From Gallionella sp. (GTDB taxonomy: Bacteria; Pseudomonadota; Gammaproteobacteria; Burkholderiales; Gallionellaceae): a stretch of DNA of 17,499 nucleotides. How positions within the stretch are numbered: the stretch's first letter is position 1; each line of letters begins with the position of its first letter. Positions 4,000-17,499 of this stretch are shown one piece after another. The DNA is taken from positions 1 through 17,499 of the forward strand of contig JANYHX010000101.1 of the NCBI GenBank assembly GCA_025362155.1, given 5' to 3'. The notes under the pieces are model-generated. The model was not told the DNA's origin, ran no database searches, and saw only the letters and a list, made by a program, of their open reading frames with translations. The position numbers and the translations under genes were made by a program.

Positions 4000-4230
4000 C
4001 AACTCACTGCATGAGGTGTATCAAACCGCTTTCCCCGTTGACCGCTCAGTCACGGCGCTTGCAATTAACCCCGCAAGCCCCGCGCCTTCGCTAGCGTAGT
4101 AGTATGTTCGTGCCGACTGAATATTGACCCAGGTCCTGTCGCTGTATTTTGAGCCAACAGCTGTGGATAAGTGTACCAAATAGCTGGTTCTTGAAGTTCT
4201 CCTTTTCATTTTTCTATACGCCACCAGAAT

Positions 4231-4279
4231 GCGAGAGGGAACTCGCGATGGGCGTAACCCGTAGCGAATCCCCTCTCGC
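4231..4279. repeat. 49-base imperfect inverted repeat (hairpin) just after istB
   Basis: Two 22-base arms (4231-4252 and 4258-4279) pair at 19 of 22 positions around the loop CGTAA: nine outer pairs GCGAGAGGG/CCCTCTCGC, then TCGC/GCGA, then GGG/CCC, with three single mismatches and one G-T wobble. It sits six bases past the istB stop on the minus strand. No T-run follows on either side, so it is not a standard terminator. It may be a processed 3' structure or part of the element end. Confidence 0.75.
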
Positions 4280-4285
4280 CCCAAC

Positions 4286-4719
4286 TCAGAACGGCTCGTC
4301 AGCCGGAACCTCTTTGCTTCCTTTGTGTTTTTGCTCCCCCGATTTGATGCGCGACTTCGCAGCCATACTGCTGTGCTGGAACCGGTATGACTCATTCCCC
4401 GTCTCTACGATATGGCAGTGATGGGTGAGTCGATCCAGTAGCGCGCCGTGGTCATCTTGGCATCACCGAACACGCTCGACCATTCCGAGAAGCTCAGGTT
4501 CGTGGTGATGATCACGCTCGTGTGCTCGTACAGTTTGGACAGCAGATGAAACAGCAAGGCACCGCCGACCTGGCTGAACGGCAGGTATCCAAGTTCATCG
4601 AGAATGACCATATCCATACGCATCAAGCTCAGCGCAAGCCGACCAGCCTTGCCGTCGCGCTTCTCCCGTTCCAGCACATTGACCAGATCCACCGTGGAGT
4701 AGAAGCGCACTTTTCCATG
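4286..4719 (-). pseudogene. istB: IstB-like ATPase of an IS21-family element, truncated and frameshifted
   Basis: Remnant of the IS21 helper ATPase. The minus strand from 4719 reads [14 protein letters not shown], then [16 protein letters not shown] (Walker B region), [22 protein letters not shown] and GDAKMTTA, all typical of IstB. The first roughly 100 residues, including the Walker A loop, are missing, and a stop lies just upstream near 4744. At 4439-4447 a GC-repeat puts the frame out: the next codons read ARYWIDSP, but shifting gives [19 protein letters not shown] and continues to a stop at 4286-4288. No istA is present. The element is therefore dead. Confidence in family is high; the exact break points are inferred. 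Confidence 0.88.
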
Positions 4720-4760
4720 TCTTGCTTTTATTATTGCACAGCGTTAGCCGGGCTAATCGG

Positions 4761-5048
4761 TCAGGCGGCCAGCCTTTCCAGCGGCTTTATTTTCGGGCTT
4801 GGCTGTTGCTCGGCTTGCCACAAGTCCCACTGTGTTTGCATTCCAAGCCAAACATCGGGGGAAGTGCTAAGCCATGCCGAGAGGCGCAAGGCCATCCCCG
4901 CCGTTACTCCGGCCTTGCCGTTCAGTACTTTGGATAGCGTGACGCGGGATACCTTTAATGCCTGTGCCGCGCTCGTTATCGTCATGTCTTCCGGTATCCA
5001 TTCCCGTAATACTTCGCCGGGGTGTGCTGGGTTGTGCATTCTGCTCAT
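4761..5048 (-). CDS. higA: HigA antitoxin (XRE-type helix-turn-helix)
   Basis: 95-residue antitoxin of a type II system that binds HigB and represses the shared promoter. It opens with MHNPAHPGEVL, the family signature, followed by a helix-turn-helix (about 25-60: ITSAAQALKVSRVTLSKVLN) and the WLSTSPDVWLGMQ segment. The ATG at 5048 is preferred because an AGGAG lies 9 bases upstream (5058-5062); an in-frame TTG at 5054 is only 3 bases from it. That ribosome site overlaps the higB stop, coupling the two genes. Toxin first, antitoxin second is the normal hig order. The gene ends 41 bases from the istB remnant. Confidence 0.92.
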   Translation of the reverse strand: MSRMHNPAHPGEVLREWIPEDMTITSAAQALKVSRVTLSKVLNGKAGVTAGMALRLSAWLSTSPDVWLGMQTQWDLWQAEQQPSPKIKPLERLAA

Positions 5049-5060
5049 TTTCAATATCTC

Positions 5061-5339
5061 CTAGTGGTAGTCCTGATAATCAACCAGCTCGGCATCGTCA
5101 CCCTCAAAGGTGAATGTCATACGCCAGTTCCCGTTTACCGTCACAGAATAATGCCCGGCAAGGTTGCCAGTCAGCGGGTGAAATCTCCAGCCTGGTGCGT
5201 TCATGTCATCCGGTCGCTTTGCGCTGTCCAACATGGTCAACATTATGCGCAGCTTTCCGGCATGGTGAGGCTGTATGCCAGCCTTGCTCCCTTTTCGGAA
5301 GAATGTCTCAAGCCCCTTGTGGCGAAACGTCCTAATCAT
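5061..5339 (-). CDS. higB: HigB toxin, ribosome-dependent mRNA endonuclease (RelE superfamily)
   Basis: 92-residue toxin expected to cleave mRNA on the ribosome when HigA is lost. It starts MIRTFRHKGLETFF and contains the family block GWRFHPLTG (His54), GHYSVTVNGNWRMTFTFE (Arg73) and the terminal VDYQDYH, in which Asp90-Tyr91-His92 match the catalytic C-terminus known from HigB proteins. Length is standard and there is no frame break, so the toxin looks functional. The predicted promoter lies so close that the message would be nearly leaderless. Neighbours are a dead istB and a dead restriction gene, so this is the one intact module of the region. Confidence 0.93.
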   Translation of the reverse strand: MIRTFRHKGLETFFRKGSKAGIQPHHAGKLRIMLTMLDSAKRPDDMNAPGWRFHPLTGNLAGHYSVTVNGNWRMTFTFEGDDAELVDYQDYH

Positions 5340-5346
5340 GGTGTAA

Positions 5347-5375
5347 ACTGTAAACTGTTAATTAACGATTGTCAA
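5347..5375 (-). promoter_or_regulatory. higBA promoter with palindromic operator
   Basis: On the minus strand a perfect -35 TTGACA (5370-5375) and a -10-like TACAGT (5347-5352) are spaced by 17 bases. Between them lies the perfect 10-base palindrome GTTAATTAAC (5357-5366), a likely HigA operator. Further repeats are GTAAACT twice in tandem (5343-5356) and AACGATT twice (near 5364 and 5384). Transcription would start about at the higB ATG. Box positions are seen; function is inferred. Confidence 0.55.
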
Positions 5376-5381
5376 CATAAA

Positions 5382-5510
5382 TCAACGATTCACTACATGC
5401 AAACTGGCTTTTGCTGGCACAAATTTAATCCCGGCTTCGTTCAATATCCACGCTTCAATTTTGACGTGCCACAGGTGTAGCAAGTCGAGTTCCCTCTGTA
5501 TGTGCAGCGT
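5382..5510 (-). other. Unrecognised coding-like tail between higB and the restriction remnant
   Basis: The minus strand reads LPAHTLHIQRELDLLHLWHV, KIEAWILNEAGIKFVPAKA and SLHVVNR, then stops at 5382. This looks more protein-like than the frame used by the restriction remnant over the same bases (which ends at 5455), and it lies in the same frame as the N-terminal half of that remnant. It could be the far end of another gene joined by deletion, or a chance reading. No family is recognised. Confidence 0.2.
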
Positions 5511-6212
5511 GTGTGCGGGTAAAGTGTGCCGCAGTGCTATTACAACGTGCGGCAAACAGGCCATAGCAAATGGTCTGCGCATACATGTCGCCGAATTGTT
5601 CCGCCGTGAGGTCATGCAGCAGCACTTTGCGGAAGCCATCCATCTGCTCATGCAATGTGCCGTGTTCGCCCTCTTCCGCAAAGGTCTTGCCGATGATGGT
5701 GCGGATCAAGCGTGCCAGCGCAGCCATTCGTGTGGCGAGTTCCTTGGGGCTGGAGATGACGGGGATGTTTTCGGCGAAGAATGCCTGCAACAACTCGGCG
5801 AGCTGCTGCGCTCCATCAGCCTCTGCCCGCAATTTGCCTGCGGCTTGGCAAGGCGTGCAGACAGGCGCAATTCGCCGCTGACATACCAGCGGAATTCCAG
5901 ATAGTCGGTGAGGATAAGATTGGCAAGGCCGTCGCGATAGCGCTTGAGCTGTTCGCTTTTCGCAGCGTCATCAAGCGAGACGCCGATGTCCTTGGTTTCG
6001 ACAAAACCCAGCGGAATATCTTTACGGGTGATGATGTAATCCGGCGCGCCGCATTTGATGCGCTTGGGTTCGTTGGTGGCAGTGATGCCGGGGTGGAATG
6101 CTTCGAGCAGGTCTTTCAGCGCAGGGCGGTGAGTATGTTCGGTGGCGTTGCCTGCCTTGTAGGCGTGCTCAATTTTCGCCAGATAGTCTTTGAAAATCGC
6201 GTTATCAACCAC
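5455..6212 (-). pseudogene. Restriction enzyme remnant: PD-(D/E)xK nuclease end of a type IIG/ISP-like restriction-methylase
   Basis: Starts at GTG 6212 after a GGAG ribosome site (VDNAIFKDYLAKIEHAY). Residues about 55-75 give GAPDYII...GFVETKDIG, a PD-(D/E)xK nuclease core with Asp58, Glu72 and Lys74. The frame then slips by one base near 5845-5855, in the GCAGGCAAATT stretch: before it LRLSARLAKPQ, after it in the next frame LRAEADGAQQLAELLQAFF through DMYAQTICYGLFAARCNS, the conserved lead-in to the methyltransferase part. The frame ends at 5455 at about 250 residues, whereas relatives run to roughly 1000, so the whole methyltransferase and target-recognition part is gone. Without its methylase the gene would be useless or harmful, which fits its decay. 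Confidence 0.8.
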
Positions 6213-6398
6213 CGTCTCCGCCCCTTTGTTTTTCTGTTTGCAACACAGTCAGGCAATCTGCTATCGAGCAAGCTCAATGCAGAATTGACACCGCGCCAGT
6301 GTATAGGATGCGGGTGATGTCGTAAAATCTGCTGCCATATGTCACTCACACGCGTGCTCCAGAAATAATTCAAGGAGATTGCCTGGAAATGTGGTGAA

Positions 6399-6425
6399 TT
6401 GACTGGTAAACCATTCAAGCATAAT
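6399..6425 (+). promoter_or_regulatory. Candidate promoter for the small secreted protein
   Basis: TTGACT (6399-6404) and CATAAT (6420-6425) each match five of six consensus bases, but the 15-base spacing is short. It lies 57 bases ahead of the ATG at 6482 in an AT-rich stretch. The segment 6213-6398 before it shows no gene. Confidence 0.35.
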
Positions 6426-6481
6426 TTAAAGTTAGATGTGGGTGAAGCGGTTTATCAAACTACAAATTTGCGGAGGTTGAG

Positions 6482-6694
6482 ATGAAAAAAATTCTTTTGG
6501 TAGTGTGCTTGTGCGCTTCAAGTGCTGCGTTTGCAACGCCTGCAATCTGGACGGGAAACAAACAAAAAATTGAAACGCCGAGTGGTGGAACAAAGTGGAA
6601 GTGTGAATATAAAATAGCCTACACCATGCAGATGATCCTGTTCTGGCGGACATTTTCTGATGCATGCCCATCTGAGGTGGAGGTTTATTTTTAA
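6482..6694 (+). CDS. Small exported protein with a Cys pair, function unknown
   Basis: 70 residues; the ATG at 6482 follows a GGAGG ribosome site. A clear signal peptide (1-18, cut after AFA) leaves a mature chain of about 52 residues with WTGNKQKIETPSGGTKWKCE and FWRTFSDACPSEVEVYF. The two mature cysteines (Cys41 and Cys62) could form a disulfide in the periplasm or outside. It resembles small hypothetical secreted proteins with a C-E-Y...FWR...CP pattern, but I know no assigned function. The opposite strand has only a weaker overlapping frame. It lies in the accessory region. Confidence 0.7.
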   Translation: MKKILLVVCLCASSAAFATPAIWTGNKQKIETPSGGTKWKCEYKIAYTMQMILFWRTFSDACPSEVEVYF

Positions 6695-6748
6695 GGATGC
6701 GTAAATTGTTTTGGGGCTACGGGGGCAGGAGATGATTGTGAGATTGTG

Positions 6749-7300
6749 ATGTCGCGAATTATTTCAGGAGCCAGTCTTGCGCTGGTTCTGTTTTTTAATG
6801 TAGTTGTTTTCGATGCTTGGGGTTCTCGGGCTGGGGCAGCTGAGTTGCCACCACCGCCACTTACTGCTGCGGCGATTGAACCAAAAATTAAAATTACACC
6901 CAAAATCACTTCAAAAAACTACCAGGATAATCTCCCGCAAACCCTGTGCGTGGGAGGCCAGGTCAGCTCGGCACATTCCTCATATTTCTGGGGCAAGCCC
7001 GGCAAGCTGCAGTTATGCAAGTTTAGCTATATGGAAACGTCCTCGAAAAATTATGAAGAAATTCGTCTCGCCCCACCCAGTGTTGGCGGAAATCCCAGCG
7101 ATCCGCGCAACCTTTGGCCTCAGCCTCAGATTAGCGCTTGGGACGCCGCCCAGAAAGAACGGCGCAAGTTTGTGACATCACGCATGGTATGCACGCAGGA
7201 AATAACACTTGCAGAAATACAGCAAGCAATCTCGGCAAACTTGATAGAGGTGTGGAAAAAGTTATGTATCGTGCGCGTGACATTTTTCATTTCACTATAG
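6749..7300 (+). CDS. Exported HNH-nuclease-like protein with a degenerate active site
   Basis: 183 residues from the ATG at 6749 (a GTG directly before it is also in frame). A hydrophobic leader (about 5-31) is followed by a Pro/Lys-rich stretch. The body matches my recollection of secreted HNH-like hypotheticals: LPQTLCVGG, then NYEEIRLAPPSVGG, DPRNLWPQP, and a C-terminal VCTQEITLAEIQQAI segment. In that family the middle block normally reads like YEEDHLIPLSVGG; here the Asp-His pair is replaced by Ile-Arg with no gap, so nuclease activity seems unlikely. The last dozen residues (CIVRVTFFISL) look unlike the family end and may reflect a late frame change. The ribosome site is poor: AGGAG is 17 bases away. 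Confidence 0.6.
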   Translation: MSRIISGASLALVLFFNVVVFDAWGSRAGAAELPPPPLTAAAIEPKIKITPKITSKNYQDNLPQTLCVGGQVSSAHSSYFWGKPGKLQLCKFSYMETSSKNYEEIRLAPPSVGGNPSDPRNLWPQPQISAWDAAQKERRKFVTSRMVCTQEITLAEIQQAISANLIEVWKKLCIVRVTFFISL

Positions 7301-7494
7301 GCTCTATAACTGGGAGTATGTGCCTCGTCTCTGCGGTCGAAGCAAAGTTTTGGGAAAGTATATAGATACTTTACATTGACTATTGGACTGTAACGGCGAA
7401 GCTTGCGACAATGCAACATCGCAGATTGGCCGTAGCAACTGCCAGCCGTCGGCAATTTCAATCCCACAGTTACTTCTGATATTAAGGGGAAATA

Positions 7495-8034
7495 ATGGAA
7501 AGAATTATTATTGTCATATTTGCATTCGTCTTGGGTGCATGTTCATACATGCCACAGCGTTACAGTGTCTCTGCGGAAAATACCGAAGCATTAAACAAGT
7601 TGGGAGTGGGCAATATCAACGTAGGCTCGTTTACGAAAGCCGCCCAGTTTGACACTCGTTGCAAGGTGGTTTCCGGGGAAGTGAAGAAGCCTGACATGGG
7701 CTTTGAAGGATACATCCAGCGAGCGCTTGTTCAGGAATTGAAAGCGGCGGACATATTTGATGATCGAACGCCGAAAATAACACTGTCTGGTGTGGTTGAG
7801 AAATTATCCGTTTCGACATGGCCTACGATGTACCTCAGCAATTGGGATCTTGGTGTGCGGCTCAATTCATCGAATGGGAAAACGGTTTACATTACCCAGC
7901 ATTACGAATTTAACGCCGGCCAAAATAATCTGGCTGACTGCCAGCAACTCGCAGATCACTTCATGTTTGCAGTCCAGAAAACGCTGAATAAATTAATCAA
8001 TGCTCCCGAATTTCAGTCGCTGCTCACGCCGTAG
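7495..8034 (+). CDS. Putative outer-membrane lipoprotein, function unknown
   Basis: 179 residues. The start at ATG 7495 is supported by AAGGGG six bases upstream. The short leader ends in the lipobox VLGAC (Cys16), so it should be a lipoprotein; the following residues [10 protein letters not shown] give no inner-membrane retention Asp at +2. The mature part has [19 protein letters not shown], then [33 protein letters not shown] and a C-terminal helix around [14 protein letters not shown]. This layout recalls small lipoproteins that carry a beta-strand-rich domain, but no named family is claimed. The 195 bases before it contain no supported gene. The next gene, sucC, starts 35 bases on. Confidence 0.75.
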
Positions 8035-9236: not shown

Positions 9237-10177
9237 TGGCCATTCTGATTGATAAAAATACGAGGGTAATGACGCAGGGCATGACCGGCAAAGTCGGCCA
9301 GTTCCATACCACCAATTGCAAAGCCTATGCGAATGGAGCGATGTGTTTTGTGGCCGGGGTCACACCGAATAAGGGAGGGCAAAACTTCGAAGGCATCCCG
9401 ATCTATGACAGTGTGGCAGAAGCCAAGGCACAAACCGGCGCGACGGTGTCGGTGATTTATGTGCCGCCCGCTTATGCGGCGGCGGCGATTGATGAAGCGG
9501 TGGATGCCGGACTGGATTTAGTGATCTGCATTACCGAAGGCATCCCCGTGCATGACATGCTGCGCACACGTTATAAAATGTCTCTTCAGGGGGTGCCGAC
9601 ATTCAGCGAGAAAATTGCTTTGGCAAAAGAGCATGTTCCGGGCAAACGCACCTTGCTGATCGGGCCGAACTGTCCCGGTGTAATCACACCGGATGAAATC
9701 AAGATCGGGATTATGCCGGGGCATATTCATCGCAAAGGACGCATTGGGGTAGTGTCGCGCTCCGGTACGCTGACTTATGAGGCGGTGTGGCAGTTGAGCG
9801 AATTGGGCTTGGGGCAATCGTCTTGTGTTGGCATTGGTGGCGATCCGATCAATGGCCTGAAGCATCTGGATGTGATGAAATTATTCAACGATGATCCGGC
9901 CACCGATGCGGTCATCATGGTCGGCGAAATCGGCGGCAGCGATGAAGAAGAGTGCGCCCGTTGGATTAAGGACAACATGAAAAAACCGGTAGTCGGTTTT
10001 ATCGCCGGCTTTACCGCGCCACCCGGCAAGCGCATGGGACACGCAGGTGCAATAATTTCCGGCGGACAAGGGGGCGCCGAAACCAAGCTGGCGGTGATGG
10101 AAGAATGTGGCATACATATCACGCGCAATCCCGCAGAAATGGGGCGCATGATGCAAAAAGTCTTGCAGACCTATTGA
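9236..10177 (+). CDS. sucD: SucD, succinyl-CoA synthetase alpha subunit
   Basis: 313 residues, about 24 more than the 289 of the E. coli protein. It carries the CoA-binding start ([20 protein letters not shown]), [41 protein letters not shown] and the phosphorylated active-site histidine His269 in [11 protein letters not shown]. The additional length is a single insert at about 112-137 ([20 protein letters not shown] and following) between the CITEGIP and IGPNCPG blocks; I believe related betaproteobacteria carry a similar insert. It overlaps sucC and the next gene by one base each. Confidence 0.97.
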
Positions 10178-10944
10178 TGCTGGAAATGTTGTCCTCAGCC
10201 CAGTTCTGGGTGGATGTATTCAAGATCATCATGATCGATCTGTTGCTCAGTGGCGATAACGCCGTCGTGATCGCATTGGCCTGCCGCAACCTGCCTTTGG
10301 AACAACGCAAAAAAGGAATCATGTTTGGCGTGCTGGGGGCGATCGTTTTACGCGTAGTGCTGACTTTTTTTGCGGTGAACCTGTTGTCGTTGCCGTATCT
10401 TAAATTAGTGGGGGCAGTGCTGCTGATCTGGATCGGCATTAAATTGATCCTTCCCGAGGATGAGCACAACGAAGATAGCATTAAGGCCGATACGCGTTTG
10501 TTCGGCGCGGTCAAAACCATCATCATTGCCGATCTGGTAATGAGTCTGGATAACGTGCTGGGAGTGGCGGCAGCGGCTAAAGGGAATGTGTCATTGCTGG
10601 TATTCGGCCTGTTGATCAGTATTCCGTTAATCGCATGGAGCAGCCAGTTGGTGTTGAAATTGATCGATCGTTTTTCATTCATTATTTATGCGGGGGGCGC
10701 ACTGCTGGGTTATGTCGCCGGAGAAATGCTGGTCAGCGAAGCGCTATTCGCGAATGTGATGGAGGCACGCCATTATTTGCATGGGTTGATACCGGTATTG
10801 TGCGCGTTGCTGGTATTAGGCCTAGGCAAATGGTTGGCGATGCGCAAGACGGGAAGCAGCGTTATCAATTTGACGGACGAAAGGACGACTGCGACTCCAG
10901 ACAACAAGCTACCCGAAAAAGAATTATCCAGAAAAAAATTATAA
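10177..10944 (+). CDS. TerC/YjbE-family integral membrane protein
   Basis: 255 residues from the ATG at 10177, which overlaps the sucD TGA by one base; a longer frame to 10105 lies inside sucD. About seven membrane segments are visible. Two matching acidic motifs, LLSGDNAV (Asp27) and MSLDNVLGVA (Asp125), are the hallmark of TerC proteins, one in each half. The form matches the YjbE branch. TerC relatives export manganese or help metal loading of secreted proteins; the substrate here cannot be read from sequence. A charged tail (about 224-255) is cytoplasmic or periplasmic. Coupling to sucCD makes it part of the TCA operon. Confidence 0.9.
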   Translation: MLEMLSSAQFWVDVFKIIMIDLLLSGDNAVVIALACRNLPLEQRKKGIMFGVLGAIVLRVVLTFFAVNLLSLPYLKLVGAVLLIWIGIKLILPEDEHNEDSIKADTRLFGAVKTIIIADLVMSLDNVLGVAAAAKGNVSLLVFGLLISIPLIAWSSQLVLKLIDRFSFIIYAGGALLGYVAGEMLVSEALFANVMEARHYLHGLIPVLCALLVLGLGKWLAMRKTGSSVINLTDERTTATPDNKLPEKELSRKKL

Positions 10945-10953
10945 AAGGGAGCA

Positions 10954-11406
10954 ATGGAAATGGATAGCCAGCGAAATTATTTGAAAATACTGATCCCGGT
11001 TGATGGTTCGGCGAATGCCCAGCGGGCGGTTGAATATGTCATCAAAAATATTGCCGTACTCAAAGAGGCCCCGCAGTTGTTATTGCTCAACACTCAGTGG
11101 AATGTAGCCACGGGTAACGTCAAACTATTCATCAATCAGGAAACAATCAAGGATTATTATCGCGAACAAGGCATGGCAGCACTTCAATCGGCGCGCGCTG
11201 TGCTGGACGCTGCTGCGATACCCTATCAGTACCACATCAGTATCGGGTTGCCGGCAGAAGCAATCGTGCAATATGCCGTTGAGCAGAATGTGGATCAGAT
11301 CGTGATGGGCAAGCAGGGGCAGGGCGGTTTACAGTCATTGTTACTGGGATCAGTGGTGAATAAAGTGGTGCATCTGGCAAACTGTCCGGTAGTGCTGGTC
11401 AAATAG
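10954..11406 (+). CDS. Universal stress protein (UspA family)
   Basis: 150 residues; ATG at 10954 with AAGGGAG five bases upstream and only 9 bases after the TerC gene. A single Usp domain: YLKILIPVDGSANAQRAVEY at the start, and the ATP-binding signature G-2x-G-9x-G-S/T in GKQGQGGLQSLLLGSVV. This is the ATP-binding (UspFG/MJ0577-like) class. Soluble cytoplasmic protein that usually acts in stress or energy-shortage survival; its specific role is unknown. It probably ends the sucCD-terC transcript. Confidence 0.93.
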   Translation: MEMDSQRNYLKILIPVDGSANAQRAVEYVIKNIAVLKEAPQLLLLNTQWNVATGNVKLFINQETIKDYYREQGMAALQSARAVLDAAAIPYQYHISIGLPAEAIVQYAVEQNVDQIVMGKQGQGGLQSLLLGSVVNKVVHLANCPVVLVK

Positions 11407-11507: not shown

Positions 11508-14054
11508 ATGAGCAAGGGTTGGTTTTGGCAGAAAGACTGGTTCGTAGGGTTGCTGGTGGCATTGGTTTTTTTTCTCAGCGCCCATACCGACTTGATGCAG
11601 AGCCTGGAGCGCAAGGCTTATGACTTGGGCGTACTGGCTTCCTCACGGACTCCTAGCAACAAGATCGCGGTGATTGCGATTGATGAGCAAAGCATTGCCA
11701 ATCTGGGGCGTTGGCCGTGGCCGCGCGCCATACACGCTCAAATGTTGGATGTCTTGGCGACAGGTCATCCCAAAGTAATCGGCTATACCGCATTTTTCTT
11801 CGAGCCGCAGGTCGATGCCGGGCTGGGGTACATTTCCAGGATTGCCGAATTGCTCGCCAATTCAAAACTTAAAGATACCACCGACCCCGCACAACAGGCC
11901 GAATTGGCACAGCTTGCGGCCTTATTGCAGGAGGCGTCGCAAAATCTCGATAACGATCAAAAACTCAGTGAAAGTATAGCCAGGGCAAACGATGTTCTGC
12001 TGGCGATGTTCTTCGAGTTGGGTGAACCTCAAGGTAAACCTAATCAGGAATTGCCTGATTACGTATTGCGTAATAATCTTACCAATGTAAAAAATACTCG
12101 TGGCACCGGCGAAGTGCCGGTGCCCGCGCTTAGTGTATTGCCGCCGATTCCGGCGTTGGGCGGCAAGGCCTTGGCCATTGGCCATCTGAACAATTTTCCG
12201 GATGTGGACGGGGCAATACGCACGGAGCCGCTGGTAGTGGATTATTACAATCAATATTACCCTTCGCTGTCATTGATGCTGGCAGCCAAGAGCCTCAATC
12301 TCGAACCCAAGGACATACAAATTAATTTGGGTGAGGGCGTGCAGTTGGGTAATCAGAAAATCGCGACCGATTCTTCCTTGCGTATGCATACTTATTTCTA
12401 TAAGGATAAGGATGGTCGCGCCGCGTTTCCCGTGGATTCTTTTTATGATGTTCTGAGCGGTAAAATTCCGGCAGAAAAATATCGCGACAAAATTGTGCTG
12501 ATCGGCGCCTCGGCTGCTGGCGTGGGCTCGTTGCAAGTGACGCCTATTTCTTCCGGTATGGCGCCGGTGTTGACGTTGGCGCATTCGTTGTCGAGCATTC
12601 TTAAGGGAGATTTCTTTGTGACGCCCAATTGGGCCGACGGGGCAGAAATTGGGATATTCCTACTGGTGTCACTGTATCTGATTCTGGTATTGCCGCGCCT
12701 GAATGCCGCCATTGGCGCGCTGGTTACCGGCGCCTTGTTCATTATTTTGCTGGCCGCCCATTTCGTATTAATGACGACACAAGGGATGTGGTTGCAATTG
12801 ATGCTGCCCGCTACATTGTTGTTGGTAGGACATTTGTTGTTGACCACCAAACGCTTCCTGATGACCGAGAAAGGCAAACAGAAATCCGATGCCGAATCGG
12901 CGGAAAGCAATCGTATGCTGGGCTTGGCTTTTCAAGGTCAGGGGCAGCTGGATATTGCCTTCGACAAATTCCGTAAATTGCCCATGGATGAAAGTTTGAT
13001 GGAGGTGTTGTATAACCTCGGGCTGGATTTTGAGCGCAAGCGCCAGTTCAATAAGGCAGAGTCGGTATTCAATTACATGGCTGAATATAACCCGAAATTC
13101 CGCGACCTTGAGGCGCGCCTGGCACAATCTAAAGCGATGTCGGAAACCGTAATGCTTGGGGGCGCATCCGGACGGAGTAACGCCAGCACAATTGTGTTGG
13201 ACAAGCCGGGTGTGTCCAAGCCGATGCTTGGGCGTTACGAAATAGAGAAGGAGCTCGGCAAGGGCGCGATGGGCGTGGTGTATCTCGGCAAAGATCCGAA
13301 AATCGGTCGTGTCGTAGCCATTAAAACCATGGCGTTGGCGCAAGAATTCGATCCCGAGGAACTGGAAGAAGTAAAAGCGCGCTTCTTCCGCGAAGCGGAA
13401 ACCGCCGGTCGCCTGAATCACCCGAATATTGTGACCATGTATGACGCGGGAGAGGAACATGACCTGGCCTACATCGCGATGGAATTTCTTAAAGGCCAGG
13501 ACTTGGCTCCCTATACCAAGCCCGATAATCTGCTGCTTTTGCCCCAGGTCATGAACATTATTGCGCGCGTTGCCGACGCGCTGGATTATGCGCACAAGCA
13601 AAATGTGGTGCATCGCGATATTAAACCAGCCAACATTATGTATGACCCCGAAACAGATACGCCCAAGGTGGCCGATTTCGGCATTGCCCGTATCATCGAC
13701 ACGAGCAAAACAAAAACGGGCCTGGTATTGGGCACGCCATCTTTTATGTCGCCGGAGCAGTTGGCCGGAAAGAAGATCGAAGGTGCCTCCGACCTGTTTT
13801 CACTGGGCGTGAGTTTGTACCAAATGGCTTGTGGTAAGCTTCCATTCCAAGGGGATTCAATGGCACAATTAATGTTCCGCATCGCCAACGAACCACATAC
13901 CGATATTCTAAGTATCAGGGCAGATTTGCCACCCTGTTTGGTGATGATTATTAATCGGTCATTGGCCAAGCGAGCTGAGGAGCGCTATGCCCATGGCGCG
14001 GACATGGCTCAGGCGCTGCGGCAGTGTGCTGGTAGCATAGGGGAATCTAAATGA
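11508..14054 (+). CDS. Membrane Ser/Thr protein kinase with CHASE2 sensor domain
   Basis: 848 residues. One N-terminal membrane segment (about 11-26), then a large periplasmic CHASE2 sensor (about 30-370: RTPSNKIAVIAIDEQSI, GRWPWPR, FPDVDGAIRTEPLV, KIVLIGASAAGVG), and three more membrane helices (about 378-396, 398-421, 428-446). The cytoplasmic side has TPR-like helices (465-535), a linker (540-572), then a Hanks-type kinase domain (about 575-840): P-loop GKGAMG 584-589, Lys606, Glu629, HRDIKPAN 702-709 with Asp704, DFG 723-725 and SPE 748-750. All catalytic residues are present. AGGGGAC precedes the ATG. Its stop overlaps the phosphatase start (ATGA). The ligand of the sensor is unknown. 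Confidence 0.95.
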   Translation: MSKGWFWQKDWFVGLLVALVFFLSAHTDLMQSLERKAYDLGVLASSRTPSNKIAVIAIDEQSIANLGRWPWPRAIHAQMLDVLATGHPKVIGYTAFFFEPQVDAGLGYISRIAELLANSKLKDTTDPAQQAELAQLAALLQEASQNLDNDQKLSESIARANDVLLAMFFELGEPQGKPNQELPDYVLRNNLTNVKNTRGTGEVPVPALSVLPPIPALGGKALAIGHLNNFPDVDGAIRTEPLVVDYYNQYYPSLSLMLAAKSLNLEPKDIQINLGEGVQLGNQKIATDSSLRMHTYFYKDKDGRAAFPVDSFYDVLSGKIPAEKYRDKIVLIGASAAGVGSLQVTPISSGMAPVLTLAHSLSSILKGDFFVTPNWADGAEIGIFLLVSLYLILVLPRLNAAIGALVTGALFIILLAAHFVLMTTQGMWLQLMLPATLLLVGHLLLTTKRFLMTEKGKQKSDAESAESNRMLGLAFQGQGQLDIAFDKFRKLPMDESLMEVLYNLGLDFERKRQFNKAESVFNYMAEYNPKFRDLEARLAQSKAMSETVMLGGASGRSNASTIVLDKPGVSKPMLGRYEIEKELGKGAMGVVYLGKDPKIGRVVAIKTMALAQEFDPEELEEVKARFFREAETAGRLNHPNIVTMYDAGEEHDLAYIAMEFLKGQDLAPYTKPDNLLLLPQVMNIIARVADALDYAHKQNVVHRDIKPANIMYDPETDTPKVADFGIARIIDTSKTKTGLVLGTPSFMSPEQLAGKKIEGASDLFSLGVSLYQMACGKLPFQGDSMAQLMFRIANEPHTDILSIRADLPPCLVMIINRSLAKRAEERYAHGADMAQALRQCAGSIGESK

Positions 14055-14878
14055 AGATTGCAGAAGCATTGGACATCGTCAGTCAAACCCATCCCGGTAT
14101 GGTGCGTTCGCACAATGAAGATACTGTAGGAAGCGACCCAGGGTGCGGCTTGGTGGTACTGGCGGACGGGATGGGAGGTTACAATGCGGGCGAAGTGGCA
14201 AGCGGCATTGCTGTTTCGGTGGTGGTGACGGAAGTTAGCCAGCGTTTGCTGGGCACCAGCCCTGCAGCGCGAGGAGAGAAAGAGGGCGAAGAATTGGGCG
14301 TATCGTTATTGCGCGGCAACATTCAAAAGGCCAACGCTTCTATTTTCCATGCTGCGCAAAGTCAGCCACAATATGCCGGGATGGGAACGACTATTGTCTC
14401 AGGATTGTTTTATGACAATCGCGTGGCGGTGGGGCATGTGGGAGATTCGCGCATGTACCGGTTGCGCGGCGAAGTGCTGGAAACGATCACCCGGGATCAT
14501 TCCCTGCTACAGGAGCAGATTGATAGTGGAGTGATCAGTGTGGCAGATGCGCGATTGTCGCGGAACAAAAATCTGGTGACGCGTGCGGTCGGAATTGATG
14601 TCGATGTGGAACCGGAAATCCACGTGCACGCCGTGTTGGTAGGAGATATTTACCTGCTGTGCTCGGATGGTTTGAACGACATGGTGGAAGATGAGGATAT
14701 TGAGTCCACGCTGTATGCGTTGCAGAATAATTTGCCGCTGGCGGCAACTCAGTTGATACAAATGGCAAATGATAATGGCGGGCGCGATAATGTTTCGGTA
14801 ATACTGGTGAAAGTAAAGGGCAAATTTGCCGTGCCACGTGGTTTGCTGGCTAAGCTGTTCAGTTGGTTTGAGAAATAA
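14051..14878 (+). CDS. PP2C-family Ser/Thr protein phosphatase
   Basis: 275 residues, soluble, PPM/PP2C class with two-metal site. Motifs: RSHNEDTVG (19-27), ADGMGG (38-43, metal Asp39), GMGTTIV (111), GHVGDSRMYRL (128-138), CSDGLND (204-210, Asp206) and GGRDN (243-247, Asp246). The ATG at 14051 sits inside the kinase stop, so kinase and phosphatase are made together, the usual pairing for reversing kinase output. A basic/hydrophobic tail (about 258-275, ending LLAKLFSWFEK) extends past the catalytic core and might touch the membrane or the kinase. The FHA gene starts 14 bases after its stop. Confidence 0.95.
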   Translation: MKIAEALDIVSQTHPGMVRSHNEDTVGSDPGCGLVVLADGMGGYNAGEVASGIAVSVVVTEVSQRLLGTSPAARGEKEGEELGVSLLRGNIQKANASIFHAAQSQPQYAGMGTTIVSGLFYDNRVAVGHVGDSRMYRLRGEVLETITRDHSLLQEQIDSGVISVADARLSRNKNLVTRAVGIDVDVEPEIHVHAVLVGDIYLLCSDGLNDMVEDEDIESTLYALQNNLPLAATQLIQMANDNGGRDNVSVILVKVKGKFAVPRGLLAKLFSWFEK

Positions 14879-14892
14879 CGAGGGTTACGACT

Positions 14893-15720
14893 ATGGCTGC
14901 AAAATTAATACTCAGCATGGATGGGGCGGTAATCAAAGAATACCCCCTAAATAAAGAGCGCATGACCATTGGGCGCAAGGCACACAACGACATCGCCATC
15001 GATAACCTGGCAGTGAGTGGTGAACATGCGGCCATAGTAACTATTCTGCATGATTCCTTCCTTGAGGATATGGATAGCACCAATGGCATGGAGGTAAATG
15101 GAAAGCCGACTAAAAAGCACTTCCTGCAAAATAATGATGTCATCGAAATTGGAAAATACAAGCTCAAATATATCAATGATCAAATCACACAGACTACACC
15201 TGCAGATTTCGAAAAAACGATGATTTTGCGGGAGCCTATTAAGCCCTTGGCTGGTGTTGCGGGAGGTAGTCAAACTGCAGCAATGTCGGCTGGGCAAGGG
15301 CAAACTGGTAATAAGATGGCATCTGTACAGGTTGAAAGAACGGGCAAGTTCGAAACACCCGCGGTTTCAGCGCCTATCACCCCAATGACTGCGCCAGAAA
15401 AATCGACCCAGCCCGCTGCTACTGTTTCTCCCGCTGTTCCTCCAGGCGGACCTTCCAAAATCGCCGTGGTACAAATCTTGACGGGCCCGAATGCCGGGAA
15501 GGAACTAGAGTTGGTAAAGAACCTGACTACGTTAGGGAAGCCAGGCATGCAGGTCGCAGTGCTGACGCGCCGTCCACACGGTTTTTTCATTACCCATGTC
15601 GAAGGCGAAAAGTTCCCATTGGTAAATGGTCAGGCATTAACTAATCAGGCCCATCAGCTGAATGAGCATGATGTGATTGAATTGGCTGGAGTCAAGATGG
15701 AATTCTATTTCAAGAGGTAA
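14893..15720 (+). CDS. FHA-domain protein, phosphothreonine reader with a second degenerate FHA-like domain
   Basis: 275 residues. A canonical FHA domain (about 1-95) shows MTIGRKAHNDI with Arg28, VSGEHAAI with Ser42 and His45, and DSTNGMEVNG (61-70), so it should bind phosphothreonine. A low-complexity Pro/Thr/Ala linker (about 100-185) holds EKTMILRE, with Thr109. The C-terminal part (about 188-275) looks like a second FHA fold (LTTLGKP..., FPLVNGQ, NEHDVIELAGVKMEF), but the Arg and the Ser-x-x-His motifs are gone, so it probably serves another contact. It lies directly after kinase and phosphatase and is likely a kinase substrate and reader. Confidence 0.92.
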   Translation: MAAKLILSMDGAVIKEYPLNKERMTIGRKAHNDIAIDNLAVSGEHAAIVTILHDSFLEDMDSTNGMEVNGKPTKKHFLQNNDVIEIGKYKLKYINDQITQTTPADFEKTMILREPIKPLAGVAGGSQTAAMSAGQGQTGNKMASVQVERTGKFETPAVSAPITPMTAPEKSTQPAATVSPAVPPGGPSKIAVVQILTGPNAGKELELVKNLTTLGKPGMQVAVLTRRPHGFFITHVEGEKFPLVNGQALTNQAHQLNEHDVIELAGVKMEFYFKR

Positions 15721-15784
15721 AGTTGCTGTCTCATACCTCATGGGCTGCCTCCGCTCCCAATGTTGCGTACTTTTAACATTCCTG

Positions 15785-15829
15785 TGGGGCACAGTGTTGC
15801 GATCGATAAATTCGATAGAATTTGCCCCA
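15785..15829. repeat. Nested inverted repeats ahead of the phosphodiesterase gene
   Basis: Outer arms TGGGGCA (15785-15791) and TGCCCCA (15823-15829) enclose the inner repeat ATCGA-TAAAT-TCGAT (15802-15816). No T-run follows, so a terminator is not indicated; an operator or leader structure is possible. It ends 22 bases before the ATG at 15852. Confidence 0.5.
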
Positions 15830-15851
15830 TAATTAAGGATACGCGGACAAA

Positions 15852-16616
15852 ATGAAACTTAAAGTATTGGGCTGTAGTGGTGGAATCGGTGGTAATTTGC
15901 ACACCACTTCGTTTTTGCTTGACCATGACGTATTGATTGATGCCGGGACGGGGGTAGGTGAACTCAGCCTTACCGAACTTGCTATGATCGATCATATTTT
16001 TGTTACTCACTCGCATCTCGATCATATCGCCTGCATCCCATTCATGCTGGATACCGTTGGGTTTATGCGGGACGGCCCATTGACGGTGTATGCAAGTGAA
16101 GAGACGTTGGACATTCTGAAGCATCATGTTTTTAATTGGAAAATATGGCCAGATTTCAGCAAAATTCCCAATGCCCACCAACCTTATTTGCGTTATCAGG
16201 CTATGGAGCTTGGTGAGACTATTGTCCTGAATGGGCGCAAGATAACTTCACTCCCTGCTAATCATGTGGTGCCTGCGGTGGGCTATCATCTGGATAGTGG
16301 CAAGGTGAGCCTGGTATTCACTGGAGATACCACCACCTGTGATGCGCTGTGGAAGGCGGTCAATAAAATTGAAAATTTGCGTTACCTTATTATCGAGACA
16401 GCATTTTCAAACAGTGAAAAAGATTTGGCCATAGTCTCCAAGCATTTATGCCCCAGCATGCTGGCAGAAGAATTACTTAAATTTAAGCGCAAGGCAGAGG
16501 TATTCATTACCCACCTTAAACCGAGTGAGATGGAGCTGACCATGCAAGAAATAAGTGAGTGTGGAAGCGGGCTAGAGCCAAAAATGTTATTGAATAATCA
16601 AGAATTTGATATTTAG
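15852..16616 (+). CDS. Metallo-beta-lactamase-fold hydrolase, class II cyclic-nucleotide phosphodiesterase-like
   Basis: 254 residues, no signal peptide, so cytoplasmic. The metal-binding motif THSHLDH (52-58) with the following IACIPF is typical of class II cAMP phosphodiesterases (PDEase_II). Further metal ligands fit NHVVPAVGY (His138), FTGDT (Asp159) and ITHLKP (His221). The start MKLKVLGCSGGIGGNLHTTS is also family-like. Substrate could be 3',5'-cAMP or another cyclic nucleotide; sequence alone does not settle it, and related folds cleave RNA or other phosphodiesters. It lies 131 bases after the FHA gene, possibly with its own promoter, and 47 bases ahead of the GAF gene. Confidence 0.8.
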   Translation: MKLKVLGCSGGIGGNLHTTSFLLDHDVLIDAGTGVGELSLTELAMIDHIFVTHSHLDHIACIPFMLDTVGFMRDGPLTVYASEETLDILKHHVFNWKIWPDFSKIPNAHQPYLRYQAMELGETIVLNGRKITSLPANHVVPAVGYHLDSGKVSLVFTGDTTTCDALWKAVNKIENLRYLIIETAFSNSEKDLAIVSKHLCPSMLAEELLKFKRKAEVFITHLKPSEMELTMQEISECGSGLEPKMLLNNQEFDI

Positions 16617-16663
16617 AATAAATGCGTTATAAATTTTATTTTAAATTCTAACGGGATGCGAAA

Positions 16664-17499
16664 ATGGCAACTAATAACACAGTAAGCAATGTCGGTGAGA
16701 TGACGCTTAGATTGGAGTTCACCAAGAACCTTAATCACGTTAACAATAGAATACACGCCACCGGTAACGTCGATGAAATCATGCTGGAGGTCAGCAAAGA
16801 TATTTGCGCGTTGTTCAATGCGGATCGGCTGACTATTTATGTTATAGGCGAAGACAACATATCGCTTATTTCCAAGGTCAAGACCGGACTCAATTCTTTC
16901 AAGGATCTCAAATTGCCCATTGCTGAGCAAAGCCTTGCAGGTTATGCGGCAATGCATAAAAAACTACTTAACATCAAAGATGTTTACGATGAAAAGGAAT
17001 TGGGACAATACAGCCCGCATCTGCGATTTTTGCAGGAGGTAGACAAGCGCACTGGATATCGCACCAAGCAAATGCTGGTTGCACCCATCCTGGATGCAGC
17101 CAACGGTGATTTAGTGGGCGTCATTCAGGTTATCAATAACAAAGCTGGTATGCCTTTTGCGTCCTTAATCGAAGAAGGCGCCCAAGAATTGGCACAGACG
17201 ATGGCGGTGGCGCTACGTCAGCGTCAGCAAAGTAGCACCACCAAAACAAAATATGATTTTTTAGTTGCTGATGCGGTACTTTCGGCTGCGGAATTTGAAT
17301 TGGCGACACGCACTGCACGGCGCAAGGGTATAGACATTGAAGAAGTGCTGCTGGACGAATTTCAAGTCAGTGTCGCCGCATTAGGTAATGCGCTATCCAA
17401 CTTTTTTGGAGTCCCTTATGAGCCCTACAGGGGTGATCGCCTCAAGCCTACCGAGATGCTGAAAAACCTGAGGCGAGAATATGTAGAAAGTAGTCATTG
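16664..17499 (+). CDS. GAF domain plus GspE/PilB N-terminal domain protein, 3' partial
   Basis: 278 codons are visible and the frame runs off the window. The ATG at 16664 gives MATNNTVSNV. Residues about 25-185 form a GAF domain (VDEIMLEVSKDICALFNADR, LPIAEQSLAGYAAMHKKLL, MLVAPILD, GVIQVINNK). From about 195 a type II secretion/type IV pilus ATPase N-terminal (T2SSE_N/MshEN-like) domain begins: FELATRTARRKGIDIEEVLL and ALSNFFGVPYEPYRGDR. The AAA+ motor domain would follow, outside the window; its presence is an inference. The ribosome site is weak (CGGGAT). A minus-strand opening in the same stretch is only a shadow. Confidence 0.82.
   Translation, partial: MATNNTVSNVGEMTLRLEFTKNLNHVNNRIHATGNVDEIMLEVSKDICALFNADRLTIYVIGEDNISLISKVKTGLNSFKDLKLPIAEQSLAGYAAMHKKLLNIKDVYDEKELGQYSPHLRFLQEVDKRTGYRTKQMLVAPILDAANGDLVGVIQVINNKAGMPFASLIEEGAQELAQTMAVALRQRQQSSTTKTKYDFLVADAVLSAAEFELATRTARRKGIDIEEVLLDEFQVSVAALGNALSNFFGVPYEPYRGDRLKPTEMLKNLRREYVESSH

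Follow-up and report, generated by a model that had tools for sequence, protein, structure and literature searches.

Gene content of the locus

The stretch of DNA analysed here, referred to as the window, comprises the 17,499 nucleotides of contig JANYHX010000101.1 from Gallionella sp., and from position 11508 onwards it holds the first part of a gene cluster in which Ser/Thr phosphorylation genes stand next to a cyclic-nucleotide phosphodiesterase (PDE)-like gene and a gene for a putative type IV pilus-type ATPase. The window is the complete contig C214 of a 2.2-Mb, 330-contig assembly (87.8% completeness, 4.3% contamination), and because it spans all of that contig, the cut at 17499 is the end of the assembled sequence. 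Five plus-strand open reading frames (ORFs) run from 11508 to the contig end, which falls inside the last of them. We refer to them as K (kinase), P (PP2C phosphatase), F (FHA protein), M (metallo-β-lactamase (MBL)-fold hydrolase) and G (GAF-MshEN-ATPase). Three further genes found in relatives are named C (CHASE2-adenylate cyclase), B (cyclic nucleotide monophosphate (cNMP)-binding/rhodanese protein) and H (GAF-HD-GYP protein). The features of the window are:

11508-14054, plus strand: K, CHASE2-TPR-Ser/Thr kinase, 848 amino acids; CHASE2 at ~11556-12674, kinase domain at ~13236-13988
13146-13190, plus strand: threonine motifs of the K linker, before the kinase domain, T547 (SETVML) and T561 (ASTIVL); putative phosphoacceptors
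14051-14878, plus strand: P, PP2C phosphatase of the Stp1/IreP type, 275 amino acids; ATGA overlap with K
14893-15720, plus strand: F, FHA protein, 275 amino acids, 14-base gap after P; FHA domain (~14965-15153), variable linker, conserved C-terminal domain
15217-15219, plus strand: T109 of the F linker (DFEKTMIL), within the most conserved linker block; candidate phosphoacceptor or docking site for FHA
15721-15851, plus strand: F-M gap, 131 bases, lacking the C gene of relatives (F-C-M in 68 loci, F-M in 6)
15852-16616, plus strand: M, MBL-fold class II PDE-like hydrolase, 254 amino acids; HSHLDH at 16008-16025
16664-17499, plus strand: G, 5' third of a GAF-MshEN-T2SSE ATPase gene, 278 amino acids, no stop codon; GAF at ~16769-17215

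The ORF coordinates and the Pfam matches, judged for all five proteins against curated cut-offs, bear out the one-strand set of CHASE2 kinase, PP2C phosphatase, FHA protein, PDE-like hydrolase and GAF protein described in an earlier sequence-only reading of this DNA, down to the ATGA overlap between K and P and the 14-base gap between P and F. That reading had taken the last product for a GAF plus GspE-N protein. The GAF domain stands (43.7 bits, above cut-off); GspE-N is unscored in the 278-residue fragment, and MshEN and T2SSE are found in the full-length relative L045.

Conservation of gene order

The locus was mapped in 95 sequences. Besides the window these are the best 80 of 378 loci retrieved with K and 14 order-level loci; they are not independent of one another, may include overlapping genomes, and many are cut by contig ends. 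The nearest named relatives of K come from Gallionella, Ferrigenium, Sideroxydans and other Nitrosomonadales metagenome-assembled genomes. The canonical order in relatives is K-P-F-C-M-(B)-G-H, often followed by a type IV pilin gene, and the full order is present in 60 of the 95 sequences (30 KPFCMGH and 30 KPFCMBGH), the other 35 being shorter or variant. Median distances between the matched parts of neighbouring genes are 18-127 bases. Gene order is thus conserved among relatives, the opposite of the outcome that the sequence-only reading had named as its refutation. The five genes of that reading do occur together in relatives, where the system further includes C, B, H and the pilin gene.

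In a second sample of 120 genomes of the order, evenly drawn and nearly all at least 90% complete, K was found in 42 genomes, C in 53, H in 57 and G in 54, the last count omitting 9 weaker rows (E 4e-157 to 3e-244, partial or paralogous) with which it becomes 57; these searches scored at most 8 to 12 candidates per genome, and weaker relatives may be missed. Genes present in the same genome commonly lie on the same strand within 14 kb. This applies to K and G in 29 of 35 genomes with both, to K and C in 32/37, K and H in 31/36, C and G in 31/43, C and H in 32/46, and G and H in 44/47. Several of the remaining pairs are on different contigs and give no verdict on distance. Among 370 genomes drawn from the class, with only two candidates scored per genome so that weaker relatives may again be missed, G has matches at E 1e-200 in 2; the first belongs to the same order and the second lacks a GAF match. 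At a loose threshold, 49 of 61 genomes match the G fragment of the window, some through a GAF only.

The cluster could also consist of two or three independent modules that happen to adjoin (K-P-F; C-M; G-H-pilin), in which case pili would concern only the last and the phosphorylation set would regulate something else. In genome G058, a single contig carries K, C and G at large distances from one another, P-F-M-G-H occurs without K in L111 and L115, and a Methylovorus locus (L100:9998-15836) keeps K, P, F and H with no C, M or G at the locus. This explanation is nevertheless rather unlikely given the full order in 60 of 95 mapped sequences and the short distances between neighbours; moreover, P and F remain with M-G-H in L111 and L115, where K is missing, so that the junction crosses the borders of the supposed modules. 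The Methylovorus arrangement suggests that the phosphorylation set plus HD-GYP may be the older core.

A GAF-fronted ATPase of the PilB/GspE type

The ATPase part of G falls past the contig end and was read in relatives. There, full-length G proteins of ~790-860 amino acids have the architecture GAF-MshEN-T2SSE, with L045 scoring 44.3 bits for MshEN and 381.8 bits for T2SSE (Pfam). Walker A, Asp, Walker B and His boxes are present in 72/72 full-length proteins and the zinc CxxC pairs in 70. The AAA+ motor that the sequence-only reading expected beyond the fragment is therefore present in relatives, with its ATPase motifs intact. When the genome of the window was searched with a full-length ATPase, no other contig fit to carry the rest of G was found; the other matches are paralogues of 35-45% identity. 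They include a separate PilB-like ATPase on contig C114, which holds 6 of the genome's 13 prepilin-type matches, and G would accordingly be an additional motor or a regulator of one. Among 120 relatives listed, database names for G are generic, e.g. GspE/PulE family protein.

In relatives G is followed by H, which combines GAF and HD-GYP domains (Pfam, L045 and L101 proteins) and has HDxGK in 65/65 members and HHExxDGxGYP, by a strict pattern, in 61/65. The window contig carries no H, and the search of its genome gave no match at E 1e-130. The recurrent gene 3' of H encodes a type IVa-like prepilin motif. Of the 25 loci whose sequence continues for 800 bases or more past H, 14 have such a motif in the next 1.5 kb of that strand. 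Over the 95 sequences the motif occurs 32 times in 3.37 million strand-bases, and 28 of these occurrences are downstream of H, 25 of them close and 3 more than 5 kb off. The product of the post-H gene in L045 matches N_methyl and Pilin (25.3 bits against a cut-off of 22, Pfam).

These genes bear on what G powers. The T2SSE/MshEN architecture is common to GspE and PilB, and the genome has several such ATPases, both of which would suit a type II-like secretion or competence machine instead of a pilus. The recurrent type IVa-like prepilin gene and the N_methyl and Pilin matches in L045 point the other way, and we consider a type II or competence machine improbable, though no systematic search for secretion platform genes was made. 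The sequence-only reading had named a type II/IV pilus-like motor as output; its pilus part is strengthened by the pilin after H, and type II fits less well.

Candidate ligand of the GAF domain

In a single-sequence search of the PDB, the GAF domain of the window protein matches CyaB2 best (88.2 bits, the next match having 41.4), and 19 of its 20 matches are cyclases or phosphodiesterases of cyclic-nucleotide signalling, the exception being the HD-GYP protein 4mcw. The cAMP-bound GAF of Lcd1 (5w10) is within the top 20 folds for the model of the domain. In GAF-B of CyaB2 from Anabaena, cAMP is contacted by R291, T293, I308, D356 and N359 (PMC4411481; this and the other papers cited are drawn on in excerpt). 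According to our own mapping, taken from the profile-search alignment, these correspond in G to R55, T57, V72, D127 and T130, with R, T and D identical, I changed to V and N to T. All are strongly conserved: R55, T57, D127 and T130 in 75/75 G proteins and V72 in 73/75. PDE GAFs are likewise the best matches for the GAF of H, so that this similarity is common to the GAF domains of the locus. In contrast to CyaB2, where the cAMP-binding GAFs belong to a cyclase, a single GAF here fronts a pilus or secretion ATPase.

Predicted synthesis and removal of cyclic nucleotides

In relatives C consists of CHASE2 and a class III cyclase domain (Pfam, L045 and L101 proteins). The Lys and the Thr/Asp of class III cyclases are the substrate residues that specify ATP over GTP, accompanied by Asn and Arg. 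DK[YF]xGD is present in 70/70 C proteins, TxxGDxVNxAxR in 69/70 and the first metal motif in 68/70 by a loose and 59/70 by a strict pattern, and the best solved relatives are adenylate cyclases, CyaB among them. B combines cNMP_binding and Rhodanese domains (Pfam, the same two loci), and the cNMP phosphate-binding motif GExA..RxA[TS] is present in 33/33 B proteins. Where F and M flank C or each other, the cyclase gene lies between them in 68 of 74 mapped loci. A cyclic nucleotide as second input, as proposed in the sequence-only reading, thereby gains support that it had not foreseen.

The window itself is one of the loci without C. A different CHASE2-cyclase, encoded on contig C298 and sharing 32% identity with C across 752 aligned positions, is the best match to C in its own genome, and no close match was found in this 88%-complete assembly, at which completeness a loss and an unassembled copy cannot be told apart. 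A cyclase relic in the F-M gap was considered and rejected, as 131 bases are too few to hold the C gene; a short remnant was not searched for. Within the genus, 44 of 61 genomes have C, as do 24 of the 35 of good quality. It can sit away from the locus: in G029, G is on contig C1 while C14 carries a C with 77% identity to the query, and in G001 a less similar C (52-56%) is on a different contig from K and G.

M matches Lactamase_B_2 (64 bits) and PDEase_II (50.6 bits against a cut-off of 23.7) in Pfam. HxHLDH is present in 74/76 M proteins, and all 76 have [T/S]HxHxDH, as do the atypical class II PDEs of the Rv1339/YhfI/CpdA kind, among which YfhI is counted (PMC9293780); we take this YfhI to be YhfI. 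The model of M (pLDDT 89.9) has as its closest folds, in this order, YhfI, RNase Z, an ELAC homologue and yeast PDE1. M could alternatively be an RNase Z-like enzyme or another phosphoesterase. RNase Z comes first in the sequence-profile search (42.1 bits, with yeast PDE1 third at 39.8), and on the NCBIfam equivalog for cyclic nucleotide-degrading PDEs, NF041851, whose founding protein was unchecked, M has only 37.2 bits against a cut-off of 400. PDEase_II is above its cut-off, however, YhfI is the top fold and the cyclase gene adjoins M in 68 loci, which makes an enzyme other than a cAMP phosphodiesterase unlikely. The predicted PDE role of M rests on sequence and fold.

The phosphorylation set

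CHASE2 (179 bits) and Pkinase (182 bits) of K are both above cut-off, and TPR_2 (20.3 bits) is under its cut-off of 27. VAIK, HRDxKPxN and DFG are present in all 86 members of the K family and GTPxxMSPE in 84. With CHASE2 as its sensor, K scores 278.7 on the PASTA-type Stk kinase model NF033483 against a cut-off of 450. P matches PP2C_2 (43.5 bits, above cut-off) and the NCBIfam Stp1/IreP PP2C model NF033484 (232.7 bits against 230), and DGMGG, GDSR, [ST]DG and DN are found in 88/88 P proteins. F matches FHA (64.9 bits, above cut-off), with STNG in 81/81 members and GR...ND..S..HA in 75. Its C-terminal domain (~residues 189-275, window 15457-15717) is strongly conserved in the 81 members and has no Pfam match.

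The linker of F is hypervariable apart from the block DFEKTM(V/I)LR. A threonine followed by three hydrophobic residues occurs in 79 of 81 F linkers, compared with a mean of 1.5 and a maximum of 6 in 500 shuffles; L101 and L114 are the exceptions, and 99% of F proteins have threonine in the column of T109. Every one of the 86 K linkers has at least one such motif and 53 have two, whereas in 300 shuffles of the K linkers a mean of 3.3/86 had at least one. The stricter T[MIV][IVM]L is present in 80/86 K and 68/81 F proteins, counted over whole proteins. The motif was picked after the window sequence had been viewed and then counted in relatives, and shared ancestry of related sequences contributes to these counts. 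FHA domains select residues at +3. For StkP, phosphorylation of the kinase linker at several threonines is reported, a modification that helps to recruit partners (PMC12077195). By their sequence, the linker threonines of K and F are candidate phosphoacceptors or FHA docking sites.

PppA of type VI secretion systems (T6SS) is, like P, a PP2C phosphatase. The PpkA-PppA-Fha set resembles this locus in uniting a kinase, a PP2C phosphatase and an FHA protein that act on an envelope machine (PMC3953482, PMC5995506), and K-P-F might accordingly be a type VI threonine-phosphorylation pathway. We regard this as very improbable, because F reaches 33.9 bits on the TagH/Fha-type model TIGR03354 against a cut-off of 120, and a Pfam scan of 16 window proteins, confined to the window, shows none of the T6SS families. 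T6SS control was therefore set aside. Unlike PpkA-PppA-Fha, the locus has a CHASE2 sensor and a PilB/GspE-type ATPase nearby. Of the type VI parallel drawn in the sequence-only reading, the three-part set remains, while T6SS fits less well than pili.

A protein on contig C199 of the same genome (L136) is 43% identical over 420 residues to a kinase-cNMP_binding fusion, whose own gene in L045 and L042 lies upstream of the locus in divergent orientation. The C199 protein is a possible cyclic-nucleotide-controlled kinase.

Proposed regulation of pilus extension

We propose, with a probability of roughly 0.45, that the locus regulates an extension ATPase of the type IV pilus type, with phosphorylation, cAMP and c-di-GMP converging on G. 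Its starting points are the observed gene content and order, domain families, catalytic motifs, conserved threonines and GAF pocket residues. K and, in most mapped relatives, C, both membrane proteins, would read an envelope signal with the same kind of extracytoplasmic sensor, CHASE2. K would phosphorylate threonines of the T-x-x-L type in its own linker and in that of F, the FHA domain of F would dock on such sites, and P would erase the phosphorylation. cAMP would be made by C and removed by M, and it would bind the CyaB2-like GAF of G and set the activity of this PilB-type ATPase; in many relatives it would also bind B. H would lower c-di-GMP, and as output the product of the neighbouring pilin gene would be assembled. 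In the organism of the window, where C is not at the locus, cAMP would come from elsewhere, e.g. from the CHASE2-cyclase on C298. The interactions, the ligand, the sign of regulation and pili as the output are the predicted parts of this model. The conserved order, the motor in relatives and the added cyclase gene favour the overall interpretation of the sequence-only reading. More tentatively, we suggest that binding of cAMP to the GAF of a PilB-type ATPase sets pilus assembly directly and allosterically, so that three chemistries are integrated at the base of the filament.

Several observations weigh against this proposal, beginning with the ligand. In the profile search the CyaB2 domains score 64.8 and 52.5 bits and 4mcw 62.5, and in the fold search with the GAF model (pLDDT 82.1) 4mcw comes first, above all cNMP-binding GAFs. 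As 4mcw, presumably not a cNMP-binding GAF, rivals CyaB2 by profile and leads by fold, another ligand is possible. Most characterised cNMP-binding GAFs have an NKFDE motif, which is incomplete in G, another difference from CyaB2: N158 and F165 are invariant in 75 proteins, and K and D are not retained. NKFDE residues do not contact the ligand, yet their mutation abolishes or weakens binding in several PDEs (PMC11977230), and the partial motif therefore counts against a simple claim of cNMP binding. As for the source of cAMP, F lies directly beside M without C in the window and 5 other loci, and C is below threshold in 17 of 61 genomes of the genus.

Other points concern the motor and the cohesion of the locus. 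G shares its MshEN-T2SSE core with the MshE-type extension ATPases controlled by c-di-GMP (PMC5013675) and differs from them in its front GAF, in its separate HD-GYP neighbour and in lacking the 24-residue c-di-GMP motif (RLGxx...), which was found in 0/75 N-terminal 380-residue segments of G in strict and relaxed forms. Direct c-di-GMP binding by the MshEN of G was rejected on these counts; the relaxed motif does appear on the ATPase strand in 2 (L126, L129) of 7 loci with other ATPases of the genome. The presence of other PilB/GspE-type ATPases in the genome means that G is not required as sole extension motor. In 11 of the 25 loci, the 1.5 kb after H are free of a prepilin motif. No K was found at threshold in 19 of the 54 order genomes with G. 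Finally, a promoter scan gave 9 promoter-like sites against 9.0 expected by shuffling and did not establish a single transcription unit.

To our knowledge, it is mostly through separate regulators that cAMP, c-di-GMP and Ser/Thr phosphorylation are known to control the surface filaments of bacteria. In Pseudomonas aeruginosa both c-di-GMP and cAMP bear on pilus extension, as proposed here, with FimX as a separate protein acting on PilB (PMC12533971); in the present case enzymes, readers and motor are clustered and the ATPase has a GAF of its own. Synechocystis pili are under cAMP control through CRP-type regulators (PMC7690835). Type IVa and MSH-type pilus clusters have been described in Sideroxydans ES-1 and Gallionella ES-2 (PMC3770913), and the account of them, as excerpted, does not mention the present gene set. 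The combination was not found described in the open-access literature, a scope that leaves out most subscription papers, and the locus combines parts of known kinds around a pilus-type ATPase in an arrangement that has apparently not been described before. A conserved locus with the enzymes, readers and motor of all three chemistries would be a compact system for studying signal integration, and direct cyclic-nucleotide control of a pilus ATPase would become testable with one purified protein. Over the order, G is found in nearly half of the genomes sampled (54/120), in 29 of them with K close by.

Flanking genes

Upstream of K are genes resembling sucC-sucD (named from their translations) and one gene each for a TerC family protein and a universal stress protein (Usp). 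The TerC and Usp genes (window 10105-11406) directly precede K in 60 of the 88 mapped sequences with K, so that the conserved neighbourhood extends further upstream. At 4405-5339, on the minus strand, is a truncated gene for an IS21 IstB-like ATP-binding protein (115 bits). Adjacent genes encode a HigB-like toxin (77 bits) and a helix-turn-helix protein, which resemble a HigBA pair. None of the ORFs at 4021-7467 is matched in the 94 other mapped loci. Two ORFs of 184 and 179 amino acids at 6746-8034 have no Pfam match; the 179-residue product has a lipoprotein-like N-terminus and is matched in 2 of the 94 other loci.

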